Assembly: GCF_030286555.1 (NCBI RefSeq)
Contig: NZ_JASVWF010000011.1
Location: 1-64,000, forward strand
Direction: 5' to 3'
Origin: Actinomycetospora termitidis
GTDB taxonomy: Bacteria > Actinomycetota > Actinomycetes > Mycobacteriales > Pseudonocardiaceae
Length of the DNA stretch: 64,000 bases
Positions 40,926 through 62,606 of this stretch are shown piece after piece. The notes under the pieces are model-generated. The model did no database searches. It had not been told where the DNA came from and saw nothing but the letters and a program-made list of their open reading frames with translations. The translations under genes and the position numbers were made by a program. The stretch's first letter is position 1, and each line of letters starts with the position of its first letter.

Positions 40926-40947
40926 ATCTGTGGAGTCTACTGATCTC

Positions 40948-44790: not shown

Positions 44791-44841
44791 TGTTCGACAG
44801 TCGTACTCTCGACCGAGGTTCGCGCGACGAGGGAGTCAGCG

Positions 44842-46143: not shown

Positions 46144-46149
46144 TCGTCT

Positions 46150-46230
46150 CCCGATCCCCCCTTTTCGAGAGAGGGCCACCTCCCTGGAGGGAGGGGATGT
46201 CTCGAGGGGGAGAGGGGAGGAGGCGGTCCC
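46150..46230 (+). promoter_or_regulatory. Nested inverted repeats between P450 and SCP2 genes
   Basis: CCTCCCT-GG-AGGGAGG at 46179-46194 is nested between TCGAGA (46165) and TCTCGA (46200), with C-rich and G-rich runs outside. The whole could fold into one long hairpin, acting as terminator, attenuator or mRNA stabiliser within the operon. Confidence 0.45.
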
Positions 46231-46316
46231 GTGCCCCTCTCCCGTTCGGGCGATGGGACCGCTCTTCCCACCATGCTTTCCGAGTTCCGACGGTTCGACC
46301 GAGGGGTTCTGTCGTT

Positions 46317-46727
46317 ATGGGTGTTTTCGCTGACGAAGCCGAGGTCTACGAGTACCTGGGCGGCATCTTCGAGGTCGCGACGAAGAAGGACGGGTTGGCC
46401 GACAAGCTGGCCGCGTCCGGTGTCGTGCTGCGGGTGTATTACACCGATCCGGAGGCCGTGGTGACCGTGGACATGGAGTCGCGGTCGGTGGAGACCGGGT
46501 CCGCGTCCACGGCGACCCCGACGGTGGAGCTGCACATGACCGCGGACACCGGCAACCGCTTCTGGCTGGGCAAGGTCAACCTGGCGATGGCGATGGCGAA
46601 GGGCACCGTGCGGGCCAAGGGACCGGTCCCGAAGCTGCTCAAGCTCATCCCGACCGCCAAGGAGCTGTTTCCCGAGTATCGCGCGATGGTCGCCGAACGC
46701 GGCCGCCACGACCTTCTCGAAGCCTGA
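46317..46727 (+). CDS. SCP2 sterol-binding domain protein
   Basis: A 136-residue protein (MGVFADEAEVYEYLGGIFEV). The SCP2 fold pattern is clear: VVLRVYYTDPEAVVTVDMES, a hydrophobic tunnel segment, and TVELHMTADTGNRFWLGKVN. In this family the domain binds lipids or acyl-CoA and presents them to enzymes. GAGGGG precedes the ATG. It follows the CYP125-like P450 and precedes the alcohol dehydrogenase, fitting a lipid-handling step. Confidence 0.85.
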   Translation: MGVFADEAEVYEYLGGIFEVATKKDGLADKLAASGVVLRVYYTDPEAVVTVDMESRSVETGSASTATPTVELHMTADTGNRFWLGKVNLAMAMAKGTVRAKGPVPKLLKLIPTAKELFPEYRAMVAERGRHDLLEA

Positions 46728-46751
46728 CACCCAAGACGCAGAGGGGAACCC

Positions 46752-47858: not shown

Positions 47859-47885
47859 GCCAGGAACCGGCGAGAGAAGGACACG

Positions 47886-48080
47886 ATGCTCGAAGTTCGG
47901 GTCGACTACAACCGCTGCACCGGGCACGGACTCTGCGAGCTGGAGGCCGAGGACGTCTTCGAAGTCGGCAGCGACGGCGTGGTGCACGTCCAGACCGACC
48001 ACCCCGGCGAGGAGCACCGCGAGCAGATCAAGTCGGCCGCGGCGGTGTGTCCCACCGCCGCGCTGACTCTGCTGGGATGA
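47886..48080 (+). CDS. 3Fe-4S ferredoxin
   Basis: A 64-residue protein, MLEVRVDYNRCTGHGLCELE. Three Cys ligands are in CTGHGLC and AAAVCPTAALTLLG, with His replacing the usual second-position Cys, the pattern of 3Fe-4S ferredoxins that feed actinobacterial P450s. It starts 28 bases after the dehydrogenase gene. It is the only ferredoxin seen and probably serves all three P450s in the island. Confidence 0.9.
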   Translation: MLEVRVDYNRCTGHGLCELEAEDVFEVGSDGVVHVQTDHPGEEHREQIKSAAAVCPTAALTLLG

Positions 48081-48697
48081 CCGAACCGCGAACCACGAGC
48101 ACACCTCGACGGAGGCCGGGCATGGCGCGCTCAGCGACCGAGACCGATCCCGACCACGGATCGCCGCCGGCGGCGGGGGCCCGGGAGTTGACCCCGCACA
48201 GCGACCAATGCCTGGGCTGCGGCCCCGGCAACCCGGCCGGGATCGCCATGCGCGTCTTCCGTGAGGACGACGCCGTCTACTGCGACGTCGCCTTCGCCGA
48301 CCGGCACGTCGGCGCACCCGGGCTCGCGCACGGCGGGGCGGTCGCGACCGCCTGCGACGACCTGTTCGGGTTCCTGCTCTACGTGGTCGGCGAGCCGGCC
48401 GTCACCGGCTCCCTGCAGGTCGACTACCACTCCCCCGCCGTCCTCGGCACCACCTACCGCATCCGGGCCCGACTCGAGCGCCGCGACGGCCGACGCCTGC
48501 ACATGCACGCCACCGGCACCGACCCCAGCGACCGGCTCTGCTTCGAGGCCCGCGCCGTGTTCATCGTCGTCCCGCTCGCCCACTTCCAGCGCTACGGCTC
48601 CCCCGAGTCGATCACCCACGTCTTCGCCAACGCCTCGCCCGCACCGGCTGCGGACAGCAACGAACCCGACCCCGTGAAAGGTCAGCCCCCTCCATGA
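48077..48697 (+). CDS. PaaI-type hotdog-fold thioesterase
   Basis: A 206-residue protein. A polar N-terminal tail of about 40 residues precedes the hotdog domain (CLGCGPGNPAGIAMRVFRED, GAPGLAHGGAVATACDDLFG, with the conserved HGG) and VDYHSPAVLGTTYRIRARLE. Such enzymes hydrolyse acyl-CoA thioesters. The ATG at 48077 overlaps the ferredoxin stop (ATGA). A second ATG (MARSATETD) 16 codons later is possible. Confidence 0.85.
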   Translation: MTEPRTTSTPRRRPGMARSATETDPDHGSPPAAGARELTPHSDQCLGCGPGNPAGIAMRVFREDDAVYCDVAFADRHVGAPGLAHGGAVATACDDLFGFLLYVVGEPAVTGSLQVDYHSPAVLGTTYRIRARLERRDGRRLHMHATGTDPSDRLCFEARAVFIVVPLAHFQRYGSPESITHVFANASPAPAADSNEPDPVKGQPPP

Positions 48698-49785
48698 CGA
48701 CGACGGACGCGCACAGCTGGATCGGGGTCGAGGGCTACCCGCACCGCATGGCCGGGCACTGCGGCTCCGGGGCGCTGCGCGACCTGCTCGAGTGGGCCGG
48801 TCTTTCCTGGAGCGGCGAACCACTCAGCGAAGGCACCGTCTTCGGGCTCGGCGGCTCCCTGAGCTTCAGCTACCTGCGGGGACCAGGACTCGGCTCCCCG
48901 TTCTACCTCGTCGGCCGCGGCAGCGGGCTCACCGAGTCCCTGACTGCGCGCCTGGGCATCGCCGGGGCCGCCCAGGACACCGACGACCCCGACGAGGGCC
49001 GCGCCTGGCTGCATCGCGAACTCGACGCCGGCCGACCCCTGCTGTGCTGGGCGGACATGAGCGAGCTGCCCTACCTGCGGGTCCGCATGCAGATGAGCCG
49101 CCACGACATCGTCGTCACCGGCTACGAACCCGACGGCCACCAGGTCCGCGTGATCGACAACGACCGCGCCGAACCGCAGATCATCCCCGCCGCGGCCCTG
49201 GCTGCCGCCCGCAGCTCCACCGGCTTCCCCACCCCGACCCGACACACCTGCTACCCGATGCGCTTCCCCGACTCCCTGCCCGACCAGCGCGTCGCGGCCG
49301 CGAGCGCCTGCGCGCACGCCGCACAGTCCATGACCACCCCCGCCGACGACGACACCGTCACGACCCCCGGCGCGCACGCCGCCGGCCACGGACTCGACGG
49401 CGTCGCCACCTTCCTCGCCGACCTCGAGGCCTGGCCCGACGTCCTCGCCCGCACCGCGGAGACATCCGAGCAGGACCTGCACACCGCCCTGATCACCCTC
49501 GCCGTGTTCATCGAGAAAGCCGGAACCGGCGGCGGCCTGTTCCGCCGCCTCCAAGCACAGTTCCTCGCCGAACTCACCGACCTCGACGAGCGCGCCCGCC
49601 CCGCCGCCACGATCTACGACGAGCTCGCCGGTAGCTGGTCAGCGCTCGCCGCCCGCGCCGGCGACAAGACCGCGCCCGCGACCACCCGCTGGCGCGACGT
49701 CCGAGACCGCGCCCGCCGCCTGCCAGAACTCGAGACCGACGGCGCACATCACCTCCGCGACCTCGCACAGGCCCTCACAGCCTGA
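48694..49785 (+). CDS. BtrH N-terminal / DUF4872-like protein
   Basis: A 363-residue soluble protein, coupled to the thioesterase gene by ATGA. The N-terminus (MAGHCGSGALRDLLEWAGLS, then GTVFGLGGSLSFSYLRGPGL) matches the BtrH N-terminal domain. The C-terminal helical part corresponds to DUF4872. BtrH moves an acyl group from acyl carrier protein to an aminoglycoside, and the conserved Cys in GHCGSG is the likely nucleophile. In a catabolic operon it could transfer or hydrolyse an acyl-thioester, but that is inference. It is an unexpected member of a P450 operon. Confidence 0.8.
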   Translation: MTTTDAHSWIGVEGYPHRMAGHCGSGALRDLLEWAGLSWSGEPLSEGTVFGLGGSLSFSYLRGPGLGSPFYLVGRGSGLTESLTARLGIAGAAQDTDDPDEGRAWLHRELDAGRPLLCWADMSELPYLRVRMQMSRHDIVVTGYEPDGHQVRVIDNDRAEPQIIPAAALAAARSSTGFPTPTRHTCYPMRFPDSLPDQRVAAASACAHAAQSMTTPADDDTVTTPGAHAAGHGLDGVATFLADLEAWPDVLARTAETSEQDLHTALITLAVFIEKAGTGGGLFRRLQAQFLAELTDLDERARPAATIYDELAGSWSALAARAGDKTAPATTRWRDVRDRARRLPELETDGAHHLRDLAQALTA

Positions 49786-50223
49786 GCACTCGCCGACCCA
49801 CGCGGGGCCGGGGAACCGACCAGCCACCGCAGAGCCGAGGTCACCGACCACGTTGGCCGGCCACCGGCCCGCAAACCTAGAGTCGCCTCCCCGGAAGCGG
49901 CGGCCCGAGCCCCGTGGCGGACCAGGCACGGGCAGGCCCCACGAGGACCCCGACGTCGATCGGGCGGCCGCCGGCTGGTTCCCGACTGATCCCGTCGTCG
50001 CCCGAGGCTGGCTCGTCGTGCGGCACGAGTCCGGAGGAGTCGCGCGGCCCGTCCCACTCCACGGACACGGTCCTTCTACATGTCCAGTCTTGACGGCAGC
50101 CCGGCCGCGAAGCATTCTGATGGCAGCCGCCTGCAGATGGCCCCGGGGCACGTCGAGTGCAGCCGCGCCCCCGTTCGACCCCCCCTCAAATTCGTCGTAC
50201 GAGACACCGCAGCAGGAGCCCAC
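49786..50223 (+). promoter_or_regulatory. Intergenic region with promoter of the third catabolic operon
   Basis: No gene is evident in these 440 bases. GGACACG at 50063, TGTCCAG at 50081 and GTCTTGAC at 50087-50094 resemble the elements before 41089 and 44842, though the first half-site is spaced differently. TTGACG (50090-50095) has CATTCT (50113-50118) exactly 17 bases on. The promoter lies downstream of an ATG at 50080, which supports the start at 50224. Confidence 0.55.
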
Positions 50224-51684
50224 ATGACCACGCTCACCCAGCATGCACGGCGCGCCGTTCGCGAACGGATGTCCTCGGCGCTGCTCGCGCCGCTACCGTC
50301 CGCGATCGATCGCCGCCTGCTCGACCGGGTGCGTCAGGCACCGGGCACGCCCCTCGCCGCGCCGCCGCCAGATTCGGGCCTGTCACCCGTTCCCGGCGAT
50401 CAGGGCCTCCCGGGGCTCGGCCGCACGCTGGAGTACATCCGCTTCGGCTCCGCGTTCACCCGCGCGCGATTCGAGCGGTACGGCCCGGTCTCCTGGTCGG
50501 GTTTCCTGGGGGAGCAGGTCGTCCAGGTCGCCGGACCTGAGGCGACGCACACCGTGCTCACCAACGCCGACAAGGCCTTCTCGCAGGAGGGCTGGCGTTT
50601 CCTGATCGACAACTTCTTCCACCGCGGACTGATGCTCCTGGACTTCGACGAGCACCGCTTCCACCGCCGGGTGATGCAGGAAGCGTTCACCGCTGAACGC
50701 CTGAGGGGCTACACCGACGAGACCGTCGCCTGCGTGCGGGAGACGGTGCCGACGTGGCGGCAGGACGCGCCCATTCGGCTCTACCCGGCGCTCAAGAGCC
50801 TCACGCTCGACGTCGCCACCCGGGTGTTCATGAACGAGCGTCCCGGGCACGAGGCCGAGGAAGTCAACAAGGCCTTCGTGGACTGCGTTCGAGCTGCGAG
50901 CAGCATCGTGAAATGGGATGTCCCGGGCACGCGGTGGCACGCGGGCCTGCGCGGTCGCCGCGTCCTCGAACAGTATTTCCGGGCGAACGTCGCTGCCAAA
51001 CGAGCCAGCGGCGGGGCGGACCTGTTCTCGGCGCTGTGCCAGGCCCGGACACCGGACGGTGAGACGTTCTCCGACGACGACGTCGTCAACCACATGATCT
51101 TCCTCATGATGGCCGCCCACGACACGTCCACCATCACGAGCTCCGCCGTCGCCTATCTGCTCGGCGCGAACCCGCAGTGGCAGGAACGGGCGCGCGCCGA
51201 GTCACTCGCCCTCGGAGACACCCCGCCCGACCGCGCAGCCCTGGAATCACTGGACACGCTCAATCGCGTGATCAAGGAATCCCTGCGACTGGTCGCGCCG
51301 GTGCCGGTGGTGATGCGCCGCACCGTGGCCGACACCGCCGTCTGCGGACGCTACATACCGGCCGGGCAACTGATCATGGTGGCCGGAGCGGTCAACCACT
51401 TCGATCCGTCGTGCTGGAGCGAACCCGACACGTTCGACCCCGACCGCTTCGCGGAGCCCCGACGCGAGGACAAGACCCACCGCGACGCGTGGCTGCCCTT
51501 CGGCGGCGGCGTGCACAAGTGCATCGGCATGATCTTCGGGAGCCTCGAGGTGACCGCGATCATGCACGAGATGCTGCGCGCCCACCGGTGGAGCGTCGAC
51601 CCCACATACCGCCCACGCTGGGACAACACCTCCCTCCCGGTCCCCGCCGACGGGCTGCCCCTGCGCCTGCGCCCACTGCACTGA
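50224..51684 (+). CDS. Cytochrome P450 (CYP136/CYP51-like type)
   Basis: A 486-residue P450, longer than the other two and with a eukaryote-like pattern: LPGLGRTLEYIRFGSAFTRA, FERYGPVSWSGFLGEQVV, I-helix MMAAHDTSTITSS, ExxR in IKESLRLVAPVPVV, heme loop PFGGGVHKCIGMIFGSLEV. This is the style of mycobacterial CYP136 and CYP51-related enzymes; the assignment is by pattern only. The ATG at 50224 has GGAG upstream and lies after the predicted promoter. It begins an operon with an acyl-CoA dehydrogenase and a TetR regulator. Confidence 0.85.
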   Translation: MTTLTQHARRAVRERMSSALLAPLPSAIDRRLLDRVRQAPGTPLAAPPPDSGLSPVPGDQGLPGLGRTLEYIRFGSAFTRARFERYGPVSWSGFLGEQVVQVAGPEATHTVLTNADKAFSQEGWRFLIDNFFHRGLMLLDFDEHRFHRRVMQEAFTAERLRGYTDETVACVRETVPTWRQDAPIRLYPALKSLTLDVATRVFMNERPGHEAEEVNKAFVDCVRAASSIVKWDVPGTRWHAGLRGRRVLEQYFRANVAAKRASGGADLFSALCQARTPDGETFSDDDVVNHMIFLMMAAHDTSTITSSAVAYLLGANPQWQERARAESLALGDTPPDRAALESLDTLNRVIKESLRLVAPVPVVMRRTVADTAVCGRYIPAGQLIMVAGAVNHFDPSCWSEPDTFDPDRFAEPRREDKTHRDAWLPFGGGVHKCIGMIFGSLEVTAIMHEMLRAHRWSVDPTYRPRWDNTSLPVPADGLPLRLRPLH

Positions 51685-51725
51685 TCACCCCAATCGCCGC
51701 CGGCAACGACCCCTGGAGCAGCTAC

Positions 51726-52865
51726 GTGACCCGCTCACCGTGGATGGACACCGACCTGGACGACTTCCGCGCCATGGCGCGGACGTTCTGCGAGAAGGAA
51801 CTGGCCCCTCACCAGGAGCGCTGGGCCGCCCAGAAACAGGTCGACCGCGACCTGTGGACCCGCGCCGGCGAAGTCGGCCTGCTCTGCCTCTCGATTCCAG
51901 AGGAGTACGGCGGCGGAGGCGGAACCTTCGCCCACGAGGCGGTCCTTCTCGAGGAGCAGACCGCCGCCGGCGACAGCTGCTGGGGAGTCGCCCTGCACAA
52001 CGCGATCGTCGCGCACTACGTGCTCGCCTACGGCACCGAGAGCCAGAAACGCTCCTGGTTGCCGAAGCTCGCCACCGGCGAATGGGTCGGCGCGATCGCC
52101 ATGACCGAACCCGGCACGGGATCCGACCTGCAGAACATCACCACCCGGGCGCGCCGCGACGGCGAGGACTACGTCGTCTCCGGCTCCAAGACCTTCATCA
52201 CCAACGGAGCTCAGGCCGACTTCGTGCTCGTCGCAGCGAAGACCGACCCTGACGCCGGCGCCCAAGGCGTCTCCCTGGTCGCAGTGGAGACCGCGCGAAC
52301 CGGATTCAGCCGGGGCCGGGTCCTCGAGAAGGTCGGAATGAAGGGCCAGGACACCGCCGAGCTGAACTTCGCCGACGTCCTTGTGCCCGCAGGGAACCTC
52401 CTCGGCGAAGCAGAAGGCCAAGGCTTCGTCCAGCTCATGCAGCAGCTGCCCCAAGAACGTCTCCTCATCGGCATCACCTCGGTGGCGGTCATGGAGAGGG
52501 CTCTCGCGGAGACTCTCGCCTACACCAAGGAGCGGACCGCGTTCGGACGGGCGGTGTTCAACTTCCAGAACACCCGATTCACCCTCGCCGAGGCCGCGAC
52601 CGAGGCCCGCATCTGCCGAGTCTTCCTCGACGACTGCATCCTCAAGCACCTCGACGGACAACTCGACATCCCGACAGTGGCGATGCTCAAGTGGTGGACC
52701 AGCGACCGGGCCATGCACGTCGTCGACCAGTGCGTCCAGTTGTTCGGAGGCTACGGGTACATGGCCGAGTACCCCATCGCCCGCCTGTGGACGGACCAGC
52801 GGGTGCAGCGAATCTACGGCGGCACCAACGAGATCATGAAGGAGATCATCTCGCGCACCCTCTGA
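51726..52865 (+). CDS. Acyl-CoA dehydrogenase
   Basis: A 379-residue FAD enzyme from GTG 51726 with GGAG upstream. Conserved segments: SIPEEYGGGGGTFAHEAVLL, IAMTEPGTGSDLQNITTRAR, KTFITNGAQADF, KVGMKGQDTAELNFADVLVP, QLFGGYGYMAEYPIARLWTD and the end IYGGTNEIMKEIISRTL. It is the third acyl-CoA dehydrogenase in the island and is encoded 41 bases after the third P450 gene. Likely part of the same lipid pathway. Confidence 0.9.
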   Translation: MTRSPWMDTDLDDFRAMARTFCEKELAPHQERWAAQKQVDRDLWTRAGEVGLLCLSIPEEYGGGGGTFAHEAVLLEEQTAAGDSCWGVALHNAIVAHYVLAYGTESQKRSWLPKLATGEWVGAIAMTEPGTGSDLQNITTRARRDGEDYVVSGSKTFITNGAQADFVLVAAKTDPDAGAQGVSLVAVETARTGFSRGRVLEKVGMKGQDTAELNFADVLVPAGNLLGEAEGQGFVQLMQQLPQERLLIGITSVAVMERALAETLAYTKERTAFGRAVFNFQNTRFTLAEAATEARICRVFLDDCILKHLDGQLDIPTVAMLKWWTSDRAMHVVDQCVQLFGGYGYMAEYPIARLWTDQRVQRIYGGTNEIMKEIISRTL

Positions 52866-52884
52866 ACAGGTACGGCCCGCGGTC

Positions 52885-53556
52885 GTGACCCAGCACGGGC
52901 TGCGTCAGGATGGGCGAGTGCATGCCCAGGGAACGGCGGGGACCTACGGAGGGCGCAGCGCCGAGGCGCGCCGGATCGAACGCCGACTGCGCCTGCTGGC
53001 CGCCGCTCGTGAGGTCTGGGGCACGGACGGCTGGGCCGCGGTCACGATGCGCGGCGTGTGCGGACGCGCCGGACTCGTCGACCGGTACTTCTACGAGAAC
53101 TTCTCCGATCGTGACGCTCTCCTGGGCACAGTGTGGGACCAGGAGCGGGACGCACTGATCTCCCAAGTCCGCGCGGCGTTCGTCGTCAACGCCGGCCGCG
53201 ATCTCGTCGGTGCGCTCCGCACCGTCATCGGCGCCGTGGTCGAGCACCTGCGCAGCGACCCGGTGTGCGCGCGCATCGTGCTCGGCGACCACGCCGGTAG
53301 CGCGGTGCTCGAGCCTCGGCGCCGGAAGATGCTGCGCACCGTCGCAGACCTCTTGGTCGACACCGCTGGCCCACATCTGCCGCCCACGACCGACCCGGCC
53401 CGGCTCCGCATGAGTACCTTGCTGGGCGTCGGAGGGTTCGCTGAGATCGTCGCGGCCTGGAACGCCGGCGAACTCGACGTCGACGCCTCGGACATCACAG
53501 AACACGCCACGATGGTCGCCGCGCTGCTCGTCGAGGGCCACCAACCACGAGGGTAG
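52885..53556 (+). CDS. TetR-family transcriptional regulator
   Basis: A 223-residue protein. The helix-turn-helix (REVWGTDGWAAVTMRGVCGR, AGLVDRYFYENFSDRDALLG) is typical of the family. The GTG at 52885 gives about 30 extra N-terminal residues; GTG 52918 is an alternative. It is the last gene of the third catabolic operon. No palindrome can be tied to it with confidence. With the regulator at 40335 it would give the island two ligand inputs. Confidence 0.8.
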   Translation: MTQHGLRQDGRVHAQGTAGTYGGRSAEARRIERRLRLLAAAREVWGTDGWAAVTMRGVCGRAGLVDRYFYENFSDRDALLGTVWDQERDALISQVRAAFVVNAGRDLVGALRTVIGAVVEHLRSDPVCARIVLGDHAGSAVLEPRRRKMLRTVADLLVDTAGPHLPPTTDPARLRMSTLLGVGGFAEIVAAWNAGELDVDASDITEHATMVAALLVEGHQPRG

Positions 53557-53616
53557 GCCGCCGCGCCTGCCCAATGTCGGAAGTTCCGAGCCCGGAGCCC
53601 TACGTAGAGACGCGGG

Positions 53617-53884
53617 TTGTCGCTCTACGAAGCTACGGTTGGGATCGAGGTCCCTCGCGACCGCGACTCGAGCTTCGACCCGGTCATCGTCGGCAAGCGT
53701 CAGCGGCGCCTGGACGGCATCGACGAGATCGTCCTGTCGCTGACCGCTCGGGGCCTGACCACCGGCGGAGTCAGCGCCCACTTCGAGGAGGTCTACGGGG
53801 CCAAGGTCTCCAAGGACACCATCTCCAGGATCACCGACAAGGTCCTCGAAGACCTCGCCGAGTGGGGAGAACCGGCCGCTGGAT
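53617..53884 (+). pseudogene. Remnant of an IS256-family (mutator-type) transposase
   Basis: About 90 codons match an internal piece of IS256-type transposases: EVPRDRDSSFDPVIVGKRQR, RLDGIDEIVLSLTARGLTTG, YGAKVSKDTISRITDKVLED, LAEW. The N-terminal part and the catalytic half are missing. At about 53865 one extra G shifts the frame, after which NRPLD continues the family sequence until 53884. Homology then ends abruptly, 12 bases before the stop codon of the recombinase gene on the other strand. The junction is therefore a likely insertion or deletion point. Confidence 0.8.
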
Positions 53885-53895
53885 GCAGCCAATCG

Positions 53896-55017
53896 CTATG
53901 TCAGCCAGTGGGTGGGGTTGGTGGGGTCGAAGGTGCGGGCGGCGTCGATGTAGGAGTCCATGGAGGCGCGGGAGCGCCAGCGGCCGTGGCGTTGGACGTC
54001 GCGTTCGGGGACGCCGGCGGCGATGGCTTCGGTGGCGAACCCGCGGCGCAGGCTGTGTCCGCCCCACAGCTGCGCGTCGTCGAGGCCGGCGGCGTTGGCG
54101 CGGCGTTTGATGATCTCGGCGATCGAGTTGCGGTGCAGCCCGCCGGCGCGGGGGCGGCGGCCGTAGCGGTCGATCCCGCGCCAGGCGGGGCCTTCGAGGA
54201 TGCCGTGGGAGCCGAGGAGGTCCCGCCAGCGGGTCCAGGCGGCACCGGCGTCGAGCAGCGTCGACTCGTCGCTCCCCTCCCCTACCGTCGCCTCGGGTGA
54301 CGGGGCGGCGATGCCGAGCGTGGTGCCGGCGCCGTGCTGGTCGGTCTTGGAGCGGGCCAGGTGGACCGAGAGGCCCTGCTCGGAGGGGTGCAGGTCGGCC
54401 ATCTGCAGGCGGGCGAGGTCGTCGGTGCGCAGCGCCGCCTTCCACCCGACCAGCAACAGGGCGTGGTCGCGGGCGTCCGCGAGCACCTCCTCCGGCTTCA
54501 GCAGGCGCAGCACCTCGACCAGCGGCTCCCGGCGGGCGGCGGCGCGACGACGGGTCGGGGCGACGCCGGGGTGGCGCCGGATCCCGGTGATGGTGCGGCG
54601 CACGGCTTCGGCCTGGACGGGGTTGTCAACCTGGGCGGTCTGGTGCACCACCGAGATCGCCGCCAGATACCCGGACAACGTCCCTGGTCGCAGGCCCTCC
54701 CGCTCACACACCTGCCCGGCCACCACCGAGCTCGACGGATCGGCCGGGGTGGCCGACCGCCAGATCGGGGCGAGGTCGGCCAGGAACCGGGCCACGGTCA
54801 GCGGATCCGCCGGCAGCGCCCGCTCCCCCGCTGCGGCGCACCAGGTCTCGAAGCGGCGCCACTGCCGCTCGTAGGCCGACCAAGTTTTCTCCGCCCGCGC
54901 CCCGCGCGCGTAGGACTCGGCGCGCGCGGTCAGCTCGTCGCGGAACCCGCGCAACGCAGCGGGCTCACTCCCGGGAACGGCGACGAGGGCTTCCTCATTC
55001 AGCTCCGCGGCGGTCAT
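53896..55017 (-). CDS. Tyrosine recombinase / integrase
   Basis: A 373-residue protein. An N-terminal SAM-like core-binding domain (SYARGARAEKTWSAYERQWR) precedes the catalytic domain with Arg in KAALRTDDLARL near 193, HSLRRGFAT (HxxR) near 320, HGRWRS near 347 and the nucleophile Tyr in ASMDSYIDAA near 356. The active-site set appears complete. The ATG at 55017 opens a sensible domain, though its Shine-Dalgarno is weak. It is divergent from a gene for a paralogous unknown protein, sharing a 150-base intergenic region. No tRNA gene or obvious attachment site is visible at its 3' side. Confidence 0.88.
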   Translation of the reverse strand: MTAAELNEEALVAVPGSEPAALRGFRDELTARAESYARGARAEKTWSAYERQWRRFETWCAAAGERALPADPLTVARFLADLAPIWRSATPADPSSSVVAGQVCEREGLRPGTLSGYLAAISVVHQTAQVDNPVQAEAVRRTITGIRRHPGVAPTRRRAAARREPLVEVLRLLKPEEVLADARDHALLLVGWKAALRTDDLARLQMADLHPSEQGLSVHLARSKTDQHGAGTTLGIAAPSPEATVGEGSDESTLLDAGAAWTRWRDLLGSHGILEGPAWRGIDRYGRRPRAGGLHRNSIAEIIKRRANAAGLDDAQLWGGHSLRRGFATEAIAAGVPERDVQRHGRWRSRASMDSYIDAARTFDPTNPTHWLT

Positions 55018-55167
55018 CGCGCCATGTTCTAACCGGCGGGCGAGCTGGCCCGGGAGGCGCGCCGCGCCAACCGTGCAGACATGCAGATTATGCACTGTAG
55101 GCCTTGAACAGGTCAGCCTAGAAGACGTAAAGCCTGACTAGACATGTAGAGCGGTACCCTCGTTCGC
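55018..55167. promoter_or_regulatory. Divergent promoter region between recombinase and paralog genes
   Basis: Less GC-rich than its surroundings. Three GCCT-containing units recur over 50 bases (AGGCCTTGAAC, CAGCCTAGAAG, AAGCCTGACTAG at about 55104-55142). They could be binding sites for a regulator or recombinase core sites. No clean -10/-35 pair is evident. Confidence 0.35.
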
Positions 55168-56094
55168 GTGGTCGCCGTCTACCCCTACGTCGGGAGCCGA
55201 GAGCGGGACGCGGCGCTGCGTCGGATCGCTGCTAGGCACCTGCGCTGCGAGGATTCTCGCTGGTCAGAGGCCGGGTGCGAGGGCGACGATCCGGCCCGCG
55301 ACGTCCTGGACTACCTGCGTCGCCACCACACCCGGCTGCCCCGCGCGGTGTCCAGCGAGGACACCCGCGACGCCCTGGTGCTCAGTGCCTGGATCTACTG
55401 GGAGGAGCGCCGGCGGGAGCGGGATCTGCTGCGCCGCGCCCGCGGGTACGGGCACTCCCTGGGCGAGCTCGGAGCCTTCCTCGGGCTGAACACCCGCCAG
55501 GGCACCTACGACTACCTCGACCGGCTCGAGGCGCTCGTCGAGGCCCACAGCACCGACCAGGCACGCCAGCAGCGGGTGGCCGACGAGCGCGTGGAGCACC
55601 AGCGCGTTGCCGATGGGGTCGTGCGCGACCCTGATCTGATCGCCGGCCCGCTCGCGACGTCGACGTTGACTCCCCGCGACGACCTCTACCGACGCACCCG
55701 CGGGCGGCGGGCCTCCACCGCGGGCGCCGACCCCGACACGGTGCGGGCACGGCGACGCGACAGCAGGACACTTCCGGCGCGGGAGCGCTGGATCGCTGAG
55801 CACCACAGCGAGCTCGACGTCTTGGTCTCCGAGCTTCTGGGCCAGCTGCAGCGGCTCGGCATCGAGGCGCGCGAGCAGGAGTCCGACGACTTCGAGCTCG
55901 AGGACACCCTCGCGGTGCTGGACCGCCACCGAGACACCGGCGACTACTCCCCCGCCACCTTCGGCGCCATCGGGCTGGTGCTCGGCGAACTCCGCTTCCA
56001 CCCCGCCCTTGGGCCGCTCGCCCGCAACCACGGCGTCCACCGAGCCATCGCCGCCGCCGACCGGCTCCGGGCACGCTTCGGCGCCTTGAGCTGA
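55168..56094 (+). CDS. Unknown protein, paralog 1 of a recombination-module family
   Basis: A 308-residue charged, helical protein from GTG 55168. It is clearly related to the product at 58874: shared EDSRWSEAG, (R)xVLDYL, LVLxAW-x-x-W, a helix-turn-helix-like stretch (GHSLGELGAFLGLNTRQGTY, DYLDRLEA), ARERWIAEHH and a C-terminal NHGVHRAIAAADRLRARF. I know no family for it. It is divergent from the tyrosine recombinase and convergent with tniB. The helix-turn-helix pattern and the context suggest a DNA-binding regulator or accessory recombination factor (inference). Confidence 0.75.
   Translation: MVAVYPYVGSRERDAALRRIAARHLRCEDSRWSEAGCEGDDPARDVLDYLRRHHTRLPRAVSSEDTRDALVLSAWIYWEERRRERDLLRRARGYGHSLGELGAFLGLNTRQGTYDYLDRLEALVEAHSTDQARQQRVADERVEHQRVADGVVRDPDLIAGPLATSTLTPRDDLYRRTRGRRASTAGADPDTVRARRRDSRTLPARERWIAEHHSELDVLVSELLGQLQRLGIEAREQESDDFELEDTLAVLDRHRDTGDYSPATFGAIGLVLGELRFHPALGPLARNHGVHRAIAAADRLRARFGALS
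55248..55271 (+). repeat. 24-base identical block, copy in paralog 1
   Basis: CGAGGATTCTCGCTGGTCAG followed by AGGC is identical to 58951-58974, inside the EDSRWSEAG codons, although the genes otherwise differ in many positions. It begins with CGAG-GATT-CTCG, an inverted repeat. It may be strong protein-level constraint or a DNA site. Confidence 0.6.
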
Positions 56095-56115
56095 CACGCC
56101 TCGACGCTCGGAGGG

Positions 56116-57063
56116 TCACCCCAGGGCGCGCTCGAAGACCCGACGGCGCTCGCTCGGGCCGAGGTACTCGGTCGCAGCCAGCGTCTCGGCGTTGATCGAC
56201 TCGTCCCCACTGCTGATCGCGAGCGCGGCCGCGGAGGACAGAAGCGCGGCGAGCTCGCCGATCGTGCCCTCGGATCGCGCGATCAGGTACTCGGCCATCT
56301 CCGGCTGCGCGATGTCCGAGCGCCGACGCAGCGGGAACGACGCCGCGAAGCTCGCGAGCAGCGAGCGGGTCTCGTCGCTGTCGGCCTCCCAGCGCGGCAG
56401 CACCACCGGCTGGAAACGGTTCTCGAGCTGGTCGTCCGAGCGGATGGCGAGGTAGGCGTCGTGGGTGCCGACCCCCACCAGCGGGACACGCAGGTTGTTG
56501 CCCAGCTGGCGGAGCAGGTTGAGGAACTCGCGGCGACGGGAGGCGTTGCCGGCGAGCATGTTGTGCAGCTCGTCGATGACCAGGACCCGCAACCCGTTGC
56601 CGCCGAGCCACCACATGGCGGTGCGCTCGAGGTCGACCGCCCGCGGCCGGGCCTGACCACCGACCGGGTCGGGAGAGCCGCAGGCGTCCAGCAGTGCCGC
56701 GTAGAACCGCGTGACCGACGGCTCGGAGGGCATCTGCATGACCACCAGCGGGATCGGTGGCGTGAGCCGGTCCTCCGGCATGGCGGCGACGCGGGCGTCC
56801 ACGGTGCGCCGGAACTTCTCGATCAGGATCGACTTGCCGTTGTTGGTCGGGCCGGCGATCAACAGGTTCGGCATGCGCTGTCGCGACGGCCAGTCCCAGA
56901 GTTCGTCGAGGCGGCGCAGGGCGGCGGCGACTCGTGGGTAGCCGATCCAGCGTTCGGCGCGCACACGTCGAAGGCGCTCCTCGTCGGGTCGGCGCGCGTG
57001 GTCTCGAGCTCCTGGGTGCAGGTGGGACAGGTCGAGCTCGTCGGGATCCACCCGAGTCACCAC
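56116..57063 (-). CDS. tniB: TniB-type AAA+ ATPase of a Tn5053/Tn7-like transposon
   Basis: A 315-residue protein. Walker A LLIAGPTNNGKSILIEKFRR near residue 71-78 and Walker B LRVLVIDELHNMLAGN near 165 are those of TniB/TnsC-type regulators that choose target DNA and activate the transposase. GTG 57063 starts within the last codons of tniA (overlap of seven bases), so translation is coupled. Length is near the family norm of about 300. It is convergent with paralog 1. Confidence 0.88.
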   Translation of the reverse strand: MVTRVDPDELDLSHLHPGARDHARRPDEERLRRVRAERWIGYPRVAAALRRLDELWDWPSRQRMPNLLIAGPTNNGKSILIEKFRRTVDARVAAMPEDRLTPPIPLVVMQMPSEPSVTRFYAALLDACGSPDPVGGQARPRAVDLERTAMWWLGGNGLRVLVIDELHNMLAGNASRRREFLNLLRQLGNNLRVPLVGVGTHDAYLAIRSDDQLENRFQPVVLPRWEADSDETRSLLASFAASFPLRRRSDIAQPEMAEYLIARSEGTIGELAALLSSAAALAISSGDESINAETLAATEYLGPSERRRVFERALG

Positions 57064-58733
57064 TCCTCGATGTCGTCGAACGGTGCTGGCGCCGGCTCTT
57101 CGGCTCTGGCGTCCCGGCGAAGGTCGGGCGGTGGCGGTGGGACGGCGATCGGACCGGAAGACGGCGTTGACGCCACGGGGCGGCGCTGACGTTCCCGGCG
57201 GGCGCGTCGGGTCGACTTCGTCGCGGTGTCGCTGACGTGGCGCATTTGCTCGACCGAGGCGAACAGGGCCTGCTCGTCGACCTCGCCGCGTCCTTGCTCC
57301 CGCAGGCTCGCGACGGCGGCCCGGTGTTCCCAGAGGCTGATTGCGGGGTGAGCGAGGTGGCGGTAGCCGACGCTGAGGTAGGCGTTGCTCTGCGGGTCGA
57401 GCACCCAGACCCGGGACAGATCGCGGGGGTCGCGCCGGACAACTACTTGGCCGATCTGTTGTCGGCGGGCGATCAGGGGCTTGAGGGTGTCGCTGAAGTA
57501 GTGCACGTGGTCGATGACGAGGCCGGTGCGGTTAAGTCGCCGGCGGACGACGGGCAGGAAGTCGACCAGGAAGGACCGGGGGTTGGCCACTGTCGTCGGC
57601 GGGTGCGCGGTGGCCTTCTCCTCCCACACCGCCAGCGGCGGGCGTCCGTGACCCTCGTGGACCTGGTGGTGGTAGGCGGCGACGGCGAAGGCCAGCCAAC
57701 GTTGCAGCTCGAGCAGGGTCAGCGCCGCGGTCGCCTCACTGTCGTAGGGCCCGCGGTCGACCGGGTTGGAGAACGTCGTCCCCGGTAGCTCGTGAACCTC
57801 GCTCATCAGCGTGCCGATGAGCCTCTCCACGACTCCGCCGTACTGTGGTTCACCCGGCGGCCGGTAGTCCAGCGCGATGCCGTGTTCCTCGCACCCTCGT
57901 CGTAACGCCTCGGAGTGGAACTCCGCGCCGTTGTCGACGTACAGCTGCGCTGGCTTACCCGCCATCGGCCAGCTGACCTGCGCGCCGAGCGTTTCCAGCC
58001 ATGCCTGCTTGTCCGTCGCGATGTGGGCCAGGCAGAGCCCGACAGAGGTCGCCGACGGCGGATCGAGGGTGACGACCATCCCGACGATCGCCCGGGTGGT
58101 CACGTCGATGCCCACTGTGAGAAATGGCCGGCCGATCGGGGCTCGGTCCTGCTCGTCGACGAGGACCACATCGATGACGGTGTGGTCGATCTGCACCTGC
58201 CCCAGAGGCTCGACCGGAGTCGTCGTGCTGCCTCCCGCTGAGTCGACCTTGCGTGCGGCGTCGGGTCCGCCACGAGAGCCCGCTGCGGCTCGAGGATCCA
58301 GAACCGCGATCCGACGCTCCACGGCACCACGCGACGGTGCGCTCAACCCCCTCACACGGCAGGCCCGCACGATCGAGCGGTGAACAGAGGCGACCGAGGG
58401 TCGTTGCCGCTTCAGATACCGCTTGCGCAAGACGTCCTTGATGACAGCCTCGACGTCGTCGGGTAGGCGGCCCTTGCCCCTCCCCCCAGACGACCGTCGG
58501 GGCAGCAGGTCCGAGACTCGACCGTCGCCGGCGCGCCATCTCAACAGCAGGGAGTAGGTCTGGCGACGGGAGAGATCCAGCGCGAGGGCCGCGCGATCAA
58601 CTGCCTCGTGGCCCGGTGCGTCCAAGTGGGCGAGCTCGCGCACGACCGCGGCGCGCATGCGGGCCAGGGCCCAATCAGCCTCAGAGGCAGCGAGGAGCCC
58701 GCGCTCGGCTCCTGCAAGGTCCTCGCCTGCCAT
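57057..58733 (-). CDS. tniA: TniA-type DDE transposase (Mu/Tn5053 family)
   Basis: A 558-residue protein. An N-terminal helix-turn-helix region (ALALDLSRRQTYSLLLRWRA) is followed by the rve integrase core with catalytic Asp183 (VQIDHTVID), Asp267 (LYVDNGAEF) and Glu303 (GGVVERLIGTL). The D-35-E spacing is exact, so the core looks intact. A Mu-type C-terminal beta barrel and a basic/Pro-rich tail that may contact TniB complete it. The ATG at 58733 has GAGG upstream; a longer form is open but has no homology. No TniQ or resolvase gene of the usual tni set is recognisable nearby. Confidence 0.88.
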   Translation of the reverse strand: MAGEDLAGAERGLLAASEADWALARMRAAVVRELAHLDAPGHEAVDRAALALDLSRRQTYSLLLRWRAGDGRVSDLLPRRSSGGRGKGRLPDDVEAVIKDVLRKRYLKRQRPSVASVHRSIVRACRVRGLSAPSRGAVERRIAVLDPRAAAGSRGGPDAARKVDSAGGSTTTPVEPLGQVQIDHTVIDVVLVDEQDRAPIGRPFLTVGIDVTTRAIVGMVVTLDPPSATSVGLCLAHIATDKQAWLETLGAQVSWPMAGKPAQLYVDNGAEFHSEALRRGCEEHGIALDYRPPGEPQYGGVVERLIGTLMSEVHELPGTTFSNPVDRGPYDSEATAALTLLELQRWLAFAVAAYHHQVHEGHGRPPLAVWEEKATAHPPTTVANPRSFLVDFLPVVRRRLNRTGLVIDHVHYFSDTLKPLIARRQQIGQVVVRRDPRDLSRVWVLDPQSNAYLSVGYRHLAHPAISLWEHRAAVASLREQGRGEVDEQALFASVEQMRHVSDTATKSTRRARRERQRRPVASTPSSGPIAVPPPPPDLRRDARAEEPAPAPFDDIEEW

Positions 58734-58873
58734 CACCGACCTCGCTCTGTGCAGCGCACTTCGGTCAAGATGCTGACCGTGCACATGACTCTGGCCAACA
58801 CCAGTGTTCGCAGCCCTCTGCACCTGGTCAAGAATCCGCAGTTCAGGAGCGCAGTCCACTTCGAGAATTGACA

Positions 58874-59833
58874 GTGGCGACCTTCCCGGCGGTCGGCGAC
58901 GTGGAGCGCGACGACGCCCTCGCTCGGCTCGACCGCCGGCACCGCGAGTACGAGGATTCTCGCTGGTCAGAGGCAGGGGACGAGCCCCGGGAGGTGCTGG
59001 ACTACCTTGTCGAGCACCGCGCCCGGCTGGCCCGCCTGCCTCGCGAGCTTGCCCAGGGCGACGTGTGGGACGAGCTGGTGCTCACCGCGTGGGTGCACTG
59101 GGACGACCGCCGCCGCGAGGCAACAGTGCTGCACCAGGCGATCCGCCGCGGGCTGTCGTTGCGCGAGGTCGGTCGGTTCGTCGGCGTCCACACCGCCCAA
59201 GGCATGCGCGATTACCTCGACAGCCTCGACGCTCGCTTGCGGGAGTACCGCCGCCACACCCGCGACCCCGATCCGACCCGCATCCGCTCCCCCGCCCCGG
59301 GGGGCCGCGAGCTCCTAATCGACGACACGGCAGCCCGCGCCGACCACGAGCCCGATCAAGGCGACGATGCACCGTCGCGACGCAGCCGTAACCCCTACCT
59401 GCGCTACCAGGGCCGCTCGCGGGCGGTCCGCGGCGCCGACGGGCAGTACACCCGCGACCGTCGCGCCGCCGAGCGAGCCCGACCAGCTCGGGAACGCTGG
59501 CTGGCCGATCAGCACGACCAGGTCGTGGTCGTGCTCGTGAACCTGCTCGAGCAGGCCGAACGGCTCGGGCTGGCCGCGGCGTCCGAACCTGATGCGTCGC
59601 CGGTGCTCGGCGACTACCTCTCCTGGATCCGCGACGACCTGTCCGACGGAATCGACGACGCGACCCTGCACACCCTTGGGCTGGCTCTGCGAGCGCTGCG
59701 CAGCGAGCCGACGGTGATCGAGCTGGCACCTCAGCACGGCGTCCATCGGGCGATCGGCGCTGCGGACGGGCTCCGCGCCGACCACGCCTCCTTGAGACCT
59801 GACCGCGTCAGGACGGTGGACGATAGGTCCTAG
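58874..59833 (+). CDS. Unknown protein, paralog 2 of a recombination-module family
   Basis: A 319-residue charged, helical protein from GTG 58874, divergent from tniA with a 140-base gap. It aligns along its whole length with paralog 1: EDSRWSEAG, EVLDYLVEHRARL, LVLTAWVHWDDRRRE, GLSLREVGRFVGVHTAQGMR plus DYLDSL, ARERWLADQH and QHGVHRAIGAADGLRA. The variable middle is a charged linker. No known family recognised. Its pairing with tniA mirrors that of paralog 1 with the tyrosine recombinase. Confidence 0.75.
   Translation: MATFPAVGDVERDDALARLDRRHREYEDSRWSEAGDEPREVLDYLVEHRARLARLPRELAQGDVWDELVLTAWVHWDDRRREATVLHQAIRRGLSLREVGRFVGVHTAQGMRDYLDSLDARLREYRRHTRDPDPTRIRSPAPGGRELLIDDTAARADHEPDQGDDAPSRRSRNPYLRYQGRSRAVRGADGQYTRDRRAAERARPARERWLADQHDQVVVVLVNLLEQAERLGLAAASEPDASPVLGDYLSWIRDDLSDGIDDATLHTLGLALRALRSEPTVIELAPQHGVHRAIGAADGLRADHASLRPDRVRTVDDRS
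58951..58974 (+). repeat. 24-base identical block, copy in paralog 2
   Basis: Exact match to 55248-55271, in the same orientation and the same codons of the paralogous gene. The two copies flank tniB and tniA. Confidence 0.6.
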
Positions 59834-60240
59834 GCCCCGCGGCTGGGATATGCGCTCCCCTACCCCGGCGGGAAGGGGACCTGGCCAGCGAGCGGCTCTT
59901 CCGCGAGGCTTTGAGGGACCCCGCGACCACGCCCGAGAATCCCGGCCACGCAACCTGCGAGCCACAGGTGCTCGGGGCCTCCCTTCTCGTAGGCCGCGCC
60001 CAGCGGCCCGTAACCGCTTCCCTGCTCGGCGCCGCGTGCTCGTTGTCGTCGACCTGAGCGTCCCCCACGAACGGAGAACGTAGTAGCGGGGCGCGCTCCC
60101 CGGGTCTTGCAGGTCCTGGCAACGCCGACTCCCGGGCTCGCAAGAGGGCCACGGGTTGAGCGCCACAACGCTCACGCGCGCGTTTCGCTGAGCGACGTTC
60201 CCGCATCTCAACCCACCCATCCATAGCCCAGGTGGGAGGC
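59834..60240. other. Intergenic gap without a supported gene
   Basis: About 400 bases after paralog 2. Frames are open on both strands because of GC content but none has consistent coding bias or a good start. Short inverted repeats are frequent. It may hold the right end of the tni element. Confidence 0.35.
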
Positions 60241-60960
60241 CACCGGTGGAGTCAGGAAGGACGCTCGATCGCGCCTCTTGTGCGGCTATAGCTGACGACC
60301 CCGGTGCGCTCCCCGGCTACAGCACAGGCGGCACAACACGTTTGCGCCCGTCCATCGCACCTGTTGAGCCACACTATGCGGGCATCGCGGGTACCCCTGC
60401 TGGCCGCGCTTGTGATGGGCATGCGTGCACCACATGCACTCCAACGCGATGACGCAACCGGTGCTGCACGCTGGTGTACCCGGTTACTGCCTTCTTACCT
60501 GCCCGGTGCGGTGACAGGTCCCGTGACAGGTGTGCCGACACGTGTTGCACTCCGCGCCTCGCCTTCTGCCGCGCCACACGCCGCCCCGGGTGGCGGACGC
60601 TCTTTGGCGCATCATGTGTCCCTGGGGCACGACACCGGCTCCACCACCGGTGTCCCGCGCGGTGCCCTCCGTATCGTCCACCTGACAGCCACCTGAGCGA
60701 CCGGTGATGCCTTTGTAGCTCGCAGATGTCGCACGGGTGGCGTGGCGTGTCGCGCCTAGGTGGATGGTCGACGGCATGCCATCCTTCCGCCCTAGAAGCG
60801 CACTGTTGCCGCCAGGTGCGGCCCCGGTGCGCTACAGCGGGGCACCTGGCTGGTCGCCAGGTCCTGAACATCTGGCGCCACGGTGTCCGCCGGGGGGCCT
60901 CAGCCGGTGGGCGAACAGGAGTCGGTGGCGGGCCGACTCAACTCAGAACGAACGGGAGCT
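60240..60960. other. Repeat-rich non-coding region: candidate centromere and/or replication origin
   Basis: About 700 bases without a gene, lying directly upstream of parA and less GC-rich than the rest. Short motifs recur in both orientations: CCGGTGCGCT at 60301 and 60825, TGACAGGT twice at 60511-60532 with the inverse ACCTGACA and CACCTGAG at 60680-60697, and many GGTGC/GCACC and CCACCGGTGT units. Such clustered short repeats next to parA are usual for parS sites or iterons. Which of the two cannot be told by eye, and no replication initiator gene is recognised nearby. Confidence 0.5.
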
Positions 60961-60963
60961 GGG

Positions 60964-61893
60964 GTGCGACGAGTAGTTGCGATCTCCAATGGCAAGGGTG
61001 GGGTCGGGAAGACGAGCTTGACGGCTGGCCTGGCCGGGCTGGTCGCGGCCTCGGGTTACCGGGTTCTCACTGTCGACATGGATCCGCAGGGCAATCTGCG
61101 CCGAGACCTGGGCTATCCGGACGCCGATCAGGGCTTCAATCTGACTTCGGCGATACGCGACGGAGCTCCGCTGGTGCCGCTTCGTGGCGTCCGCGAAGGC
61201 CTTGACTGCGTCCCGGGCGGGGCGACCCTTTCCGACCTGCCCGCGACTTTCATCTCACGCTCGGCCCGCGGGGACGTGATGAGCGGCCTGAGCACGGTAC
61301 TCGGCCAGGTCCGTCCAGAGGGGGAACCGCACGCGGACTACGACCTGGTCTTGATCGACACCCCGCCCGGTGAGCCGATCCTGCAGGACCTGGTCCTGAC
61401 AGCCGCTGACTATCTGGTGATCCCCACCCGCTCGGACGACGCATCGATCGACGGGCTGGTCACCGTCGCGCAGCGCTTCATGCGCGCCCGCGAGAGCAAC
61501 CCCGGCCTGATGCTGCTCGGGGTGCTGCTCTTCGGCGTGGGCGCTCGCAGCACTCGGCTCCGCACCACCGTCCGGGCGGCCCTCGACGACATTCTGGAAG
61601 GAGCAGCGCCGGTGTTCGAATCCAGCATCCGCTATCTCGAGTCAGCCGCCATCGACATCCGCCGTCACAGCCTGCTCCCACACGAGCTCGAAGCGAGCCA
61701 ACTGGCGGAGAAGAGCGAGCGGCTGGCCCGGCTGCGCAATCGCGAGGGCGCCGGCGCAGAGCGCCTGCTGAGCCGGGACGCCTCAGGCCTGGCCGGGGAC
61801 TACAACGCCTTGGCGCGAGAGCTCCTCGAGGCCATCGCCGAACACGAAAACCACCGACTCCTGACCAACCCGGCCGCGGCGGCGGGCGCCTGA
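60964..61893 (+). CDS. parA: ParA-type partition ATPase
   Basis: A 309-residue protein. Deviant Walker A ISNGKGGVGKTSLTAGLAGL immediately after the start, TVDMDPQGNLRRDLGY, Walker B VLIDTPPGEPI and IPTRSDDASIDGLV are all ParA hallmarks. GTG 60964 is chosen because GGGAG precedes it and the Walker strand begins at once; GTG 60883 would add 27 polar residues. No N-terminal helix-turn-helix is present with this start, so autoregulation would fall to the partner gene. It is coupled to that partner by TGATG. The role is segregation of the replicon. Confidence 0.9.
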   Translation: MRRVVAISNGKGGVGKTSLTAGLAGLVAASGYRVLTVDMDPQGNLRRDLGYPDADQGFNLTSAIRDGAPLVPLRGVREGLDCVPGGATLSDLPATFISRSARGDVMSGLSTVLGQVRPEGEPHADYDLVLIDTPPGEPILQDLVLTAADYLVIPTRSDDASIDGLVTVAQRFMRARESNPGLMLLGVLLFGVGARSTRLRTTVRAALDDILEGAAPVFESSIRYLESAAIDIRRHSLLPHELEASQLAEKSERLARLRNREGAGAERLLSRDASGLAGDYNALARELLEAIAEHENHRLLTNPAAAAGA

Positions 61894-62606
61894 TGCCGGC
61901 CAACGATCGCCCGAAGCTGGGCTCAGCTTTCCGGACGCAGGACCGCACACAGGGTCTGGCGGGCCTACTTGCGTCGACGCCAACGACCGATGACCCGGCC
62001 AAGCCGTCTACGCCGGCTGAGCCACCAGAGCGAACCACCCCACGCGACACTGCCCCCGAGCAGGAGCCGCGGACCTCGTCGGCCTCCTCGCCGGGCACGG
62101 AGGCCGCCGACGCCGCTCCTTCTTCGCCCGCCTCGTCCCGTGGGTCGGAGCCACGCCGGGGCCGCCGGGCGGAGCCACGCCGCAGGCGCCGGCCGGGATC
62201 TGCTGGAGAAGCTGGTGCTTCGAGCGCTGGGGCCGAGGACATTCCGCGGGTGGTTCCGGTGGTGCTCGATGCCGGCGTCCTCGAGCAGCTGCGGCTGCAG
62301 TCTCGCCACACCGGGCAGACTCACGGTCTGATCGCGCTGGCGGCGATCGAGAATCACCTCGACGCGCTCTCCACCGAGTGGTCGACCCCTTCGGCGTCCT
62401 TCAGCCGGAGCTCGCTGTTCGGCCGTACCCAGCCCCAGCATCGGCGCACCGAGCCCGGAGTGCAGACTCAGCTGCGCCTCGCTGCAGGCGATGCGGACGT
62501 GCTGGACGAACTCGTCGACCGCTGGTCCGCGCCCTCCCGCTCGGCACTTGTCAACCGGGCACTCAGCTTCGAGTTCTCCGAAGAGCATCATGGCGGAGCG
62601 GGGTGA
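61893..62606 (+). CDS. ParB-like partition partner
   Basis: A 237-residue protein whose ATG overlaps the parA stop. The N-terminal 115 residues are Pro/Ser/Arg-rich and disordered, including a very basic patch (RRGRRAEPRRRRRPG). The C-terminal part has two short structured segments (VVPVVLDAGVLEQLRLQSRH, DVLDELVDRWSAPSRSALVN) of the kind found in ribbon-helix-helix DNA-binding partition proteins. No classical ParB CTPase domain is seen. Assignment rests on position behind parA and this pattern. Confidence 0.65.
   Translation: MPANDRPKLGSAFRTQDRTQGLAGLLASTPTTDDPAKPSTPAEPPERTTPRDTAPEQEPRTSSASSPGTEAADAAPSSPASSRGSEPRRGRRAEPRRRRRPGSAGEAGASSAGAEDIPRVVPVVLDAGVLEQLRLQSRHTGQTHGLIALAAIENHLDALSTEWSTPSASFSRSSLFGRTQPQHRRTEPGVQTQLRLAAGDADVLDELVDRWSAPSRSALVNRALSFEFSEEHHGGAG

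Follow-up and report, generated by a model that had tools for sequence, protein, structure and literature searches.

Transposons of the Tn5053/Tn402 type have been described as using TniA, TniB and TniQ and as favouring res sites (PMC7765201, in the extract drawn on here). In Tn4651, the genes for the tyrosine recombinase TnpS and for TnpT diverge from a site between them, and TnpT is characterized, in the extract of that source, as having no apparent homology to other proteins (PMC7157771). Autoregulated regulators of plasmid partition and replication loci, as known in general, form a third point of comparison. The locus considered here lies in a 64,000-nucleotide stretch of DNA, termed the window, that makes up bases 1–64,000 of contig C3 (NZ_JASVWF010000011.1) of Actinomycetospora termitidis. 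It encodes two related proteins, X1 and X2. X1 lies inside a Tn5053/Tn402-type transposon, and X2 begins directly outside its end. The favoured reading, considered fairly probable, is that X proteins are mainly plasmid-borne, autoregulated maintenance proteins of the helix-turn-helix kind, and that X1 was brought beside X2 by the transposon.

Separate descent of X1 and X2

A preliminary description of the window had drawn attention to X1 and X2 as paralogs, and both open reading frames (ORFs) are indeed present and related along their full length (Table 1). They align end to end with 128 of 317 positions identical (40%; pairwise E value 2e-43). In a tree of 24 X proteins, X2 groups with the X proteins of Pseudonocardia eucalypti (support 94) and Pseudonocardia acaciae (90), which are encoded on contigs of 1.05 Mb and 9 kb, respectively; X1 and its counterpart in a sister genome, G135, fall outside this group. 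Tandem duplication is ruled out by the tree, because X2 groups with the X proteins of two Pseudonocardia species and not with X1.

Neither protein has a meaningful match in Pfam or NCBIfam, no relative of the family was found among PDB sequences at meaningful scores, and 17 aligned members gave only scattered weak matches against PHROGs and Pfam (GcrA, to name one, was matched by 4 of 17 with a lowest E value of 0.0004). An AlphaFold model of X1, made from four sequences, is all-helical and contains a helix-turn-helix-like pair at residues 98–105 and 110–148 (mean predicted local distance difference test score 74; predicted template modelling score, pTM, 0.40); compared with PDB folds it gave nothing at E ≤ 0.001. 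The helix-turn-helix-like core proposed earlier was borne out, but not the string SLxEvGxFxGxxTxQGxxDYLDxL as a fixed motif: all of 17 members keep QG and D, whereas SLxEvGxF varies among them. From these features, X is probably an undescribed family of helix-turn-helix DNA-binding proteins.

The transposon that encloses X1

Positions 40112–58873 of the window form an 18,762-base transposon of the Tn5053/Tn402 type with facing terminal repeats, tniA and tniB, in the order end, cargo, transposase fragment, tyrosine recombinase, X1, tniB, tniA, end. The left end, TGTCACTTGCTGAAGACGACTGCAC, has its first base at 40112, and the right end, TGTCAATTCTCGAAGTGGACTGCGC, its last base at 58873, immediately before the start codon of X2 at 58874. 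By eye, the two ends are alike at about 19 of 28 positions, and a pattern drawn from both matches the window only at these two places when up to 3 mismatches are allowed.

A second copy marks the same boundary. The block from the recombinase stop codon (53900) to 58877 is 92% identical in G135, where the flanks are different, and its right edge is the TGTCAATTCTCGAAGTGGACTGCGC end. The G135 element, on contig C38, measures 10.6 kb between facing ends at 6323 (tniA side) and 16917 and holds the same four genes with other cargo; its far end, which lies beyond the recombinase and other genes, matches the near end at 22 of 28 positions. End-like sequences (at least 20 of 28) arose once in 50 shuffles of that contig. 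X1 is enclosed by facing ends in both known copies. X1, tniA and tniB are under purifying selection, and the ratios of nonsynonymous to synonymous substitution (dN/dS) between window and G135 (tniB 0.09, tniA 0.19, X1 0.23, recombinase 0.23) indicate that the whole X1-recombinase-tniB-tniA unit is kept in this way. Within X1, residues 1–130 differ by 10 silent changes and no amino-acid change, and the linker has a dN/dS of 0.37.

The likeness to Tn5053/Tn402 lies in tniA and tniB, in inverted repeats of about 25 bp beginning with TGTCA at both ends (in the window and in G135), in cargo at the far end, and in a position within a plasmid maintenance region. Unlike those elements, the window element lacks tniQ and tniR/res and has X1 and a tyrosine recombinase instead. 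The absence of TniQ and a resolvase had been noted in the preliminary description and stands: hidden Markov models (HMMs) built here for TniQ and for the tni recombinase found no match at E ≤ 1e-6 in positions 45,001–75,000 of the contig or in stretch L032. X1 and X2 themselves gave no match to Pfam TniQ up to E = 1, and the TniQ HMM built here was also blank. The orientation differs as well, because in the described elements the inverted repeat IRo lies nearest the resolvase gene of the target (PMC7765201, same extract), whereas here it is the tniA end that faces X2.

TniA is 56–63% identical to the best 30 matches among 3,898 plasmid records, and a search confined to the genus found it in 2 of 18 genomes. 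Six actinobacterial relatives of the element were opened, and four have tniQ and a gene annotated 'recombinase family protein', the usual name for serine recombinases, after tniB. In Cellulosimicrobium, Streptomyces and Rhodococcus p52 these genes follow tniA and tniB in a row, and in Nocardia two tniQ genes are followed by the recombinase gene on the other strand. The relative in Rhodococcus DN22 has tniQ and then a tyrosine integrase, and the one in Prescottella has neither tniQ nor a recombinase annotated. The order tniA-tniB-X1-recombinase parallels tniA-tniB-tniQ-tniR.

It had been claimed that each paralog diverges from a DNA-rearranging enzyme. This holds for X1, which starts at 55168 with the recombinase starting at 55095 on the other strand. 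It does not hold in the same sense for X2 and tniA (58874 and, for the longest tniA frame, 58859 on the other strand), since a transposon end intervenes: they stand back to back because the transposon inserted there, not through a common promoter.

Plasmid context and palindrome of the X family

Nine of 200 genomes of the taxonomic family, including the genome studied here, have a match, and plasmid records with X numbered 13 with X2 as the query and 16 with a mycobacterial X. Profile searches at E ≤ 0.001 (own genome included) returned 10 of 397 genomes of the order, 7 of them weak partial matches, and 5 of 396 genomes of the phylum, 3 of them weak partial matches. Phages searched with X2 yielded no X, and 42 pattern matches in viral contigs included no relative.

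The neighbours of X were surveyed at 24 distinct loci from 25 stretches, two of which (L035 and L077) represent one plasmid. The models for parA, recombinase and tni genes were partly built from the surveyed loci, which biases the counts towards finding them. The commonest neighbour is parA, within 5 kb of X at 18 of the 24 loci. The commonest mycobacterial layout consists of parB-parA divergent from X, about 1 kb, and then a second parA with a parB-like gene. A tyrosine recombinase lies within 200 bases of X, measured between open frames, at five loci (window, G135, G169, G006 and Prauserella), divergently at four; in G006 a 93-aa ORF was called between the two. Genes of the tni type adjoin X at two loci only, the window and one sister contig, which carry the same element. 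Homologs thus occur largely away from recombinases and transposases, and the suggestion that the family serves two recombination systems finds no backing in its neighbours.

Upstream of X a palindrome, GTCAGTGAAATACTGAC, is conserved. Scores were taken in the 60 nt before 24 of 25 X genes (in P. acaciae the start is off the contig); at least 13 of the 17 positions match in 18 of 24, and all 17 match in 11. For these 18, no more than 1 of 500 shuffled sequences attained the score. The palindrome ends 2–4 nt before the start codon in 17 of the 18 and 27 nt before it in P. eucalypti, the shorter spacing being what a transcript that starts on or close to the start codon would lead one to expect. 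G169 (contig C5) and G022 score 12 of 17, and the palindrome is lacking upstream of X1 (9 of 17), the G135 copy (10), X2 (7) and the X gene of G082 (9). In 15 whole plasmid records the string GTCAGT-N5-ACTGAC occurs exactly once in 11, each time just upstream of X, and not at all in 4; of seven genomes, one has the site at X, one has two sites elsewhere, and five have none. One site per plasmid at the start of X itself fits autoregulation. No paper containing the palindrome as a literal string was found in a literature search. In a Mycobacterium riyadhense plasmid (L082), X is in pieces and the palindrome remains with one spacer base changed.

X2 stands in the same setting. The P. eucalypti X adjoins its own parA and parB-like gene, and X2 is followed by a noncoding gap, parA and a parB-like gene (Table 1). 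The protein of the last has no Pfam match, and the parB-like HMM was built from the window protein itself, so that its own match is by construction. From this arrangement, X2 looks like the plasmid's own gene, outside the transposon and heading a locus of the plasmid-maintenance type. C3 measures 116,341 bases, of which the first 138 recur at the end of the contig; the replicon is therefore most likely circular, with a length of about 116.2 kb. In G135, about 1.5 kb separates the tniA end from another parA (42% identity with that of the window), in a par locus without a second X; a search of the G135 flank for a remnant of a resident X gave weak matches only (best E value 0.044).

Interpretation and alternatives

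In the favoured account, X would bind as a dimer to the palindrome at its own promoter, repress itself, and help to maintain large low-copy actinobacterial plasmids beside their partition genes; X1 and X2 may keep the binding specificity of the family. A Tn5053/Tn402-type transposon without tniQ and tniR, carrying the X gene of another lineage together with a mobile recombinase gene, would then have inserted so that its end now stands directly before the X2 start codon, where most members have the palindrome. X1 and X2 would have been brought together by transposition rather than by duplication or a common duty, and the link of the paralogs to two recombination systems would be mostly an accident of one transposition. 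The likeness to autoregulated plasmid regulators lies in the usual single X per plasmid, in the palindrome that most members have at their own start and in the place beside parA; the X family differs in having no meaningful relative in Pfam, NCBIfam, PHROGs or PDB sequences. The loss of the palindrome at X2 is explained by the insertion.

Several observations weigh against this account. X1 and its G135 counterpart also lack the palindrome, and the insertion does not account for the lack at X1; a spaced dyad before X1, GTCAG-N17-CTGAC, was dropped as a candidate since it is not kept in G135. No 5-bp target duplication is seen at either copy (window CCGCG/GTGGC; G135 ACCTC/GCCAC), a further difference from Tn5053/Tn402, and five end-like sequences (at least 20 of 28) turn up in 293 kb of other stretches, one of these being the end on G135 contig C34. 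The window copy is a chimera whose halves meet near 54942, within the recombinase gene: its cargo half matches C34 (99.98% over 6,671 bases and 98.8% over 7,168 bases, window 46783–47782 left out) and its tni half matches C38 (92%). The structure model of X1 is weak (pTM 0.40) and without a fold match. The survey sample favours plasmids, with 15 of 24 loci drawn from a plasmid collection, and 6 of 24 have no parA within 5 kb: in L022 it lies 6.4 kb from X, L020 and L037 are at or near a contig end, and L033, L035/L077 and L039 have no parA in the stretch, the X of L039 being on a chromosome-sized contig.

The neighbouring recombinases raise the alternative that X assists a tyrosine recombinase when plasmids or cointegrates are resolved, in the way that TnpT works beside TnpS of Tn4651. 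At four of the 24 loci X, an orphan that might act as a helper, is divergent from a tyrosine recombinase, as the orphan-like TnpT is from TnpS (PMC7157771, same extract); the recombinase beside X in G169 is 39% identical to that of the window, which itself sits at the resolvase place of the transposon. Most X genes, however, have no such partner. The 11 Mycobacteriaceae loci have no recombinase within 5 kb of X (4 have one at 5–7 kb), and of 15 X plasmids one, W02, gave no match to Phage_integrase at E ≤ 1e-5 and another gave a match only below the family cut-off. The window recombinase also occurs elsewhere without X: it is a gene-sized unit scattered in the genus, with matches longer than 400 bases in 5 of 18 genomes (eight matches in G135; 82–98% identical, plus one at 67%), no X was seen at 13 other recombinase stretches fetched, and genomes G042, G075 and G098 carry it yet have no X at E ≤ 0.001. 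A role as recombinase helper is therefore regarded as unlikely. The proposal of the preliminary description, that the two paralogs serve two unrelated recombination systems as dedicated regulators or as targeting factors, draws on the position of X1 next to the recombinase and the tni genes in a unit under purifying selection that recurs in two copies with different cargo; with X2 outside the transposon, and tni genes beside X only where this one element is present, it is very improbable. Another possibility is that X1, as a captured plasmid-maintenance protein, has together with the tyrosine recombinase taken the place of TniQ and the serine resolvase, and that X1 guides TniA and TniB to sites bound by X on other plasmids, so that the element homes on plasmid maintenance loci through the operator of the resident. 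In its favour, facing ends enclose X1, the recombinase, tniB and tniA in two copies whose cargo differs, the putative DNA-binding half of X1 has no amino-acid change between them, and both copies are in par loci, one ending exactly where the palindrome of the resident X would be. X1 homing of this kind is nonetheless thought quite improbable.

X might also be the replication initiator that these large plasmids seem to lack. It stands beside par genes on low-copy replicons, a replicon type was assigned by MOB-suite to only 4 of 15 X records opened, and the gene table of pMYCCH.02, which is incomplete, names no initiator among the listed genes. For Mycobacterium avium pS2b, a record of which carries X, the authors report no initiator or oriV by similarity (PMC12803027, in the extract used here), and the origins of mycobacteriophage plasmid-prophages, which lie next to par genes and are in some cases RNA-based (PMC7157519, likewise an extract), make the idea attractive. 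Unlike iteron-type initiators, however, X has no array of operator half-sites beside it: in 12 gaps between X and parA, of overall G+C 0.51–0.69, the half-site of the palindrome occurs at most twice in 11 and five times in Prauserella. In the gaps of M. avium and M. riyadhense, certain 7-mers are repeated more often than in shuffled sequence (11 versus 7 and 9 versus 8). GC-skew minima lie 0.19–0.43 of the plasmid length from X in six plasmids and the window plasmid, whereas in 4 of these 7 the maxima are no farther than 0.10 from X; the skew is weak evidence either way, since it is confounded by gene orientation and its amplitude is not significant for W05 and the window plasmid. With so few half-sites in the gaps and no skew minimum at X, an iteron-type initiator was rejected. 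Furthermore, the M. riyadhense plasmid carries X in broken form, a RepA is annotated on the Prauserella plasmid, and the window plasmid has two X genes. Seven mycobacterial plasmids encode near X an HTH_36-like protein of about 400 aa (3 of 6 scanned reach the Pfam cut-off) that is about as conserved as X and is a rival candidate for the initiator. An initiator role is therefore rather unlikely.

The locus is of interest for two reasons. It exemplifies a res-hunter-type transposon, known here from two copies whose ends are mapped on either side, in which TniQ and a resolvase are missing and tniA and tniB are nonetheless kept under selection. It also brings to light a protein family that has had no name and whose palindrome is sharply conserved; members occur on large plasmids of Pseudonocardia and nontuberculous mycobacteria, and at least one of these plasmids is without a recognised replication initiator.

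Other features of the locus and the plasmid

The features of the transposon and of the X2 locus are collected in Table 1. The transposase fragment is one that we take to be IS256-like.

Table 1. Features of the transposon and of the adjoining plasmid locus (window positions).
Feature	Position	Strand	Basis or remark
Left terminal inverted repeat, TGTCACTTGCTGAAGACGACTGCACTAA	40112–40139	+	Identity with G135 contig C34 begins exactly here, within a recombinase copy; compared with other actinobacterial tni ends
Cargo: TetR-type regulators, P450-like and acyl-CoA dehydrogenase-like genes (named by reading their translations)	40335–53556	+	ORFs
Transposase gene fragment, cut near the recombinase stop codon	53617–53888	+	ORF
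Tyrosine recombinase, at the tniR resolvase place of relatives	53896–55095	-	Pfam Phage_integrase, 1.2e-9
X1, transposon-borne X protein	55168–56094	+	At the tniQ place of relatives; 92.5% amino-acid identity in G135
tniB, intact	56116–57063	-	Pfam TniB, 2.8e-60
tniA	57057–58739 (likely start near 58739; longest ORF to 58859)	-	TniA identity to plasmid matches
Right terminal inverted repeat, read inwards, TGTCAATTCTCGAAGTGGACTGCGCTCC	58846–58873	-	Homology with G135 contig C38 stops here; last base directly before the X2 start codon
X2, the X protein that looks like the plasmid's own	58874–59833	+	Groups with X of P. eucalypti and P. acaciae, apart from X1
Noncoding gap between X2 and parA, 1,049 bases	59834–60882	+	Of the kind found between X and parA on other plasmids
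parA	60883–61893	+	AAA_31, 1.9e-26; 42% identical to parA beside P. eucalypti X
parB-like partner	61893–62606	+	Alignment: place and sequence similar to post-parA proteins of other X plasmids

The repeated recombinase unit (window 53896–55112) consists of the gene and about 90 bases upstream, and GTGCACAACCGCCGTATCTGCCC lies upstream in many copies. Alignments between copies stop within about 20 bases of the stop codon, the exception being G135 contig C34, where the cargo side is also common. No attachment site was found among the copies compared. A clean empty site was also not found: at one locus three genomes lack the unit, and the other flank differs as well. The catabolic-looking cluster at 40112–54942 shares 98.8–99.98% identity with a contig from a different species in the genus, and this near-identity suggests a recent transfer. 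On the Prauserella marina plasmid (L012/L076), X is doubled, its two copies being fused in tandem within a single ORF beside a tyrosine recombinase and parA.

An Rfam search of 53–64 kb of the window returned nothing at gathering scores. A second protein with a ParA-type ATPase domain is encoded on the same plasmid at window positions 14679–16040, and a 703-aa ParB_N protein at positions 114034–116145 of C3. A Type ISP restriction-modification enzyme of 1,690 aa lies near the left transposon end (window 33793–38865). Just past the window, C3 positions 64824–66566 encode a distant relative (E value 1.4e-12) of the HTH_36-like plasmid protein, and several large ORFs that also lie past the window resemble transfer genes, on a reading of the ORFs only.

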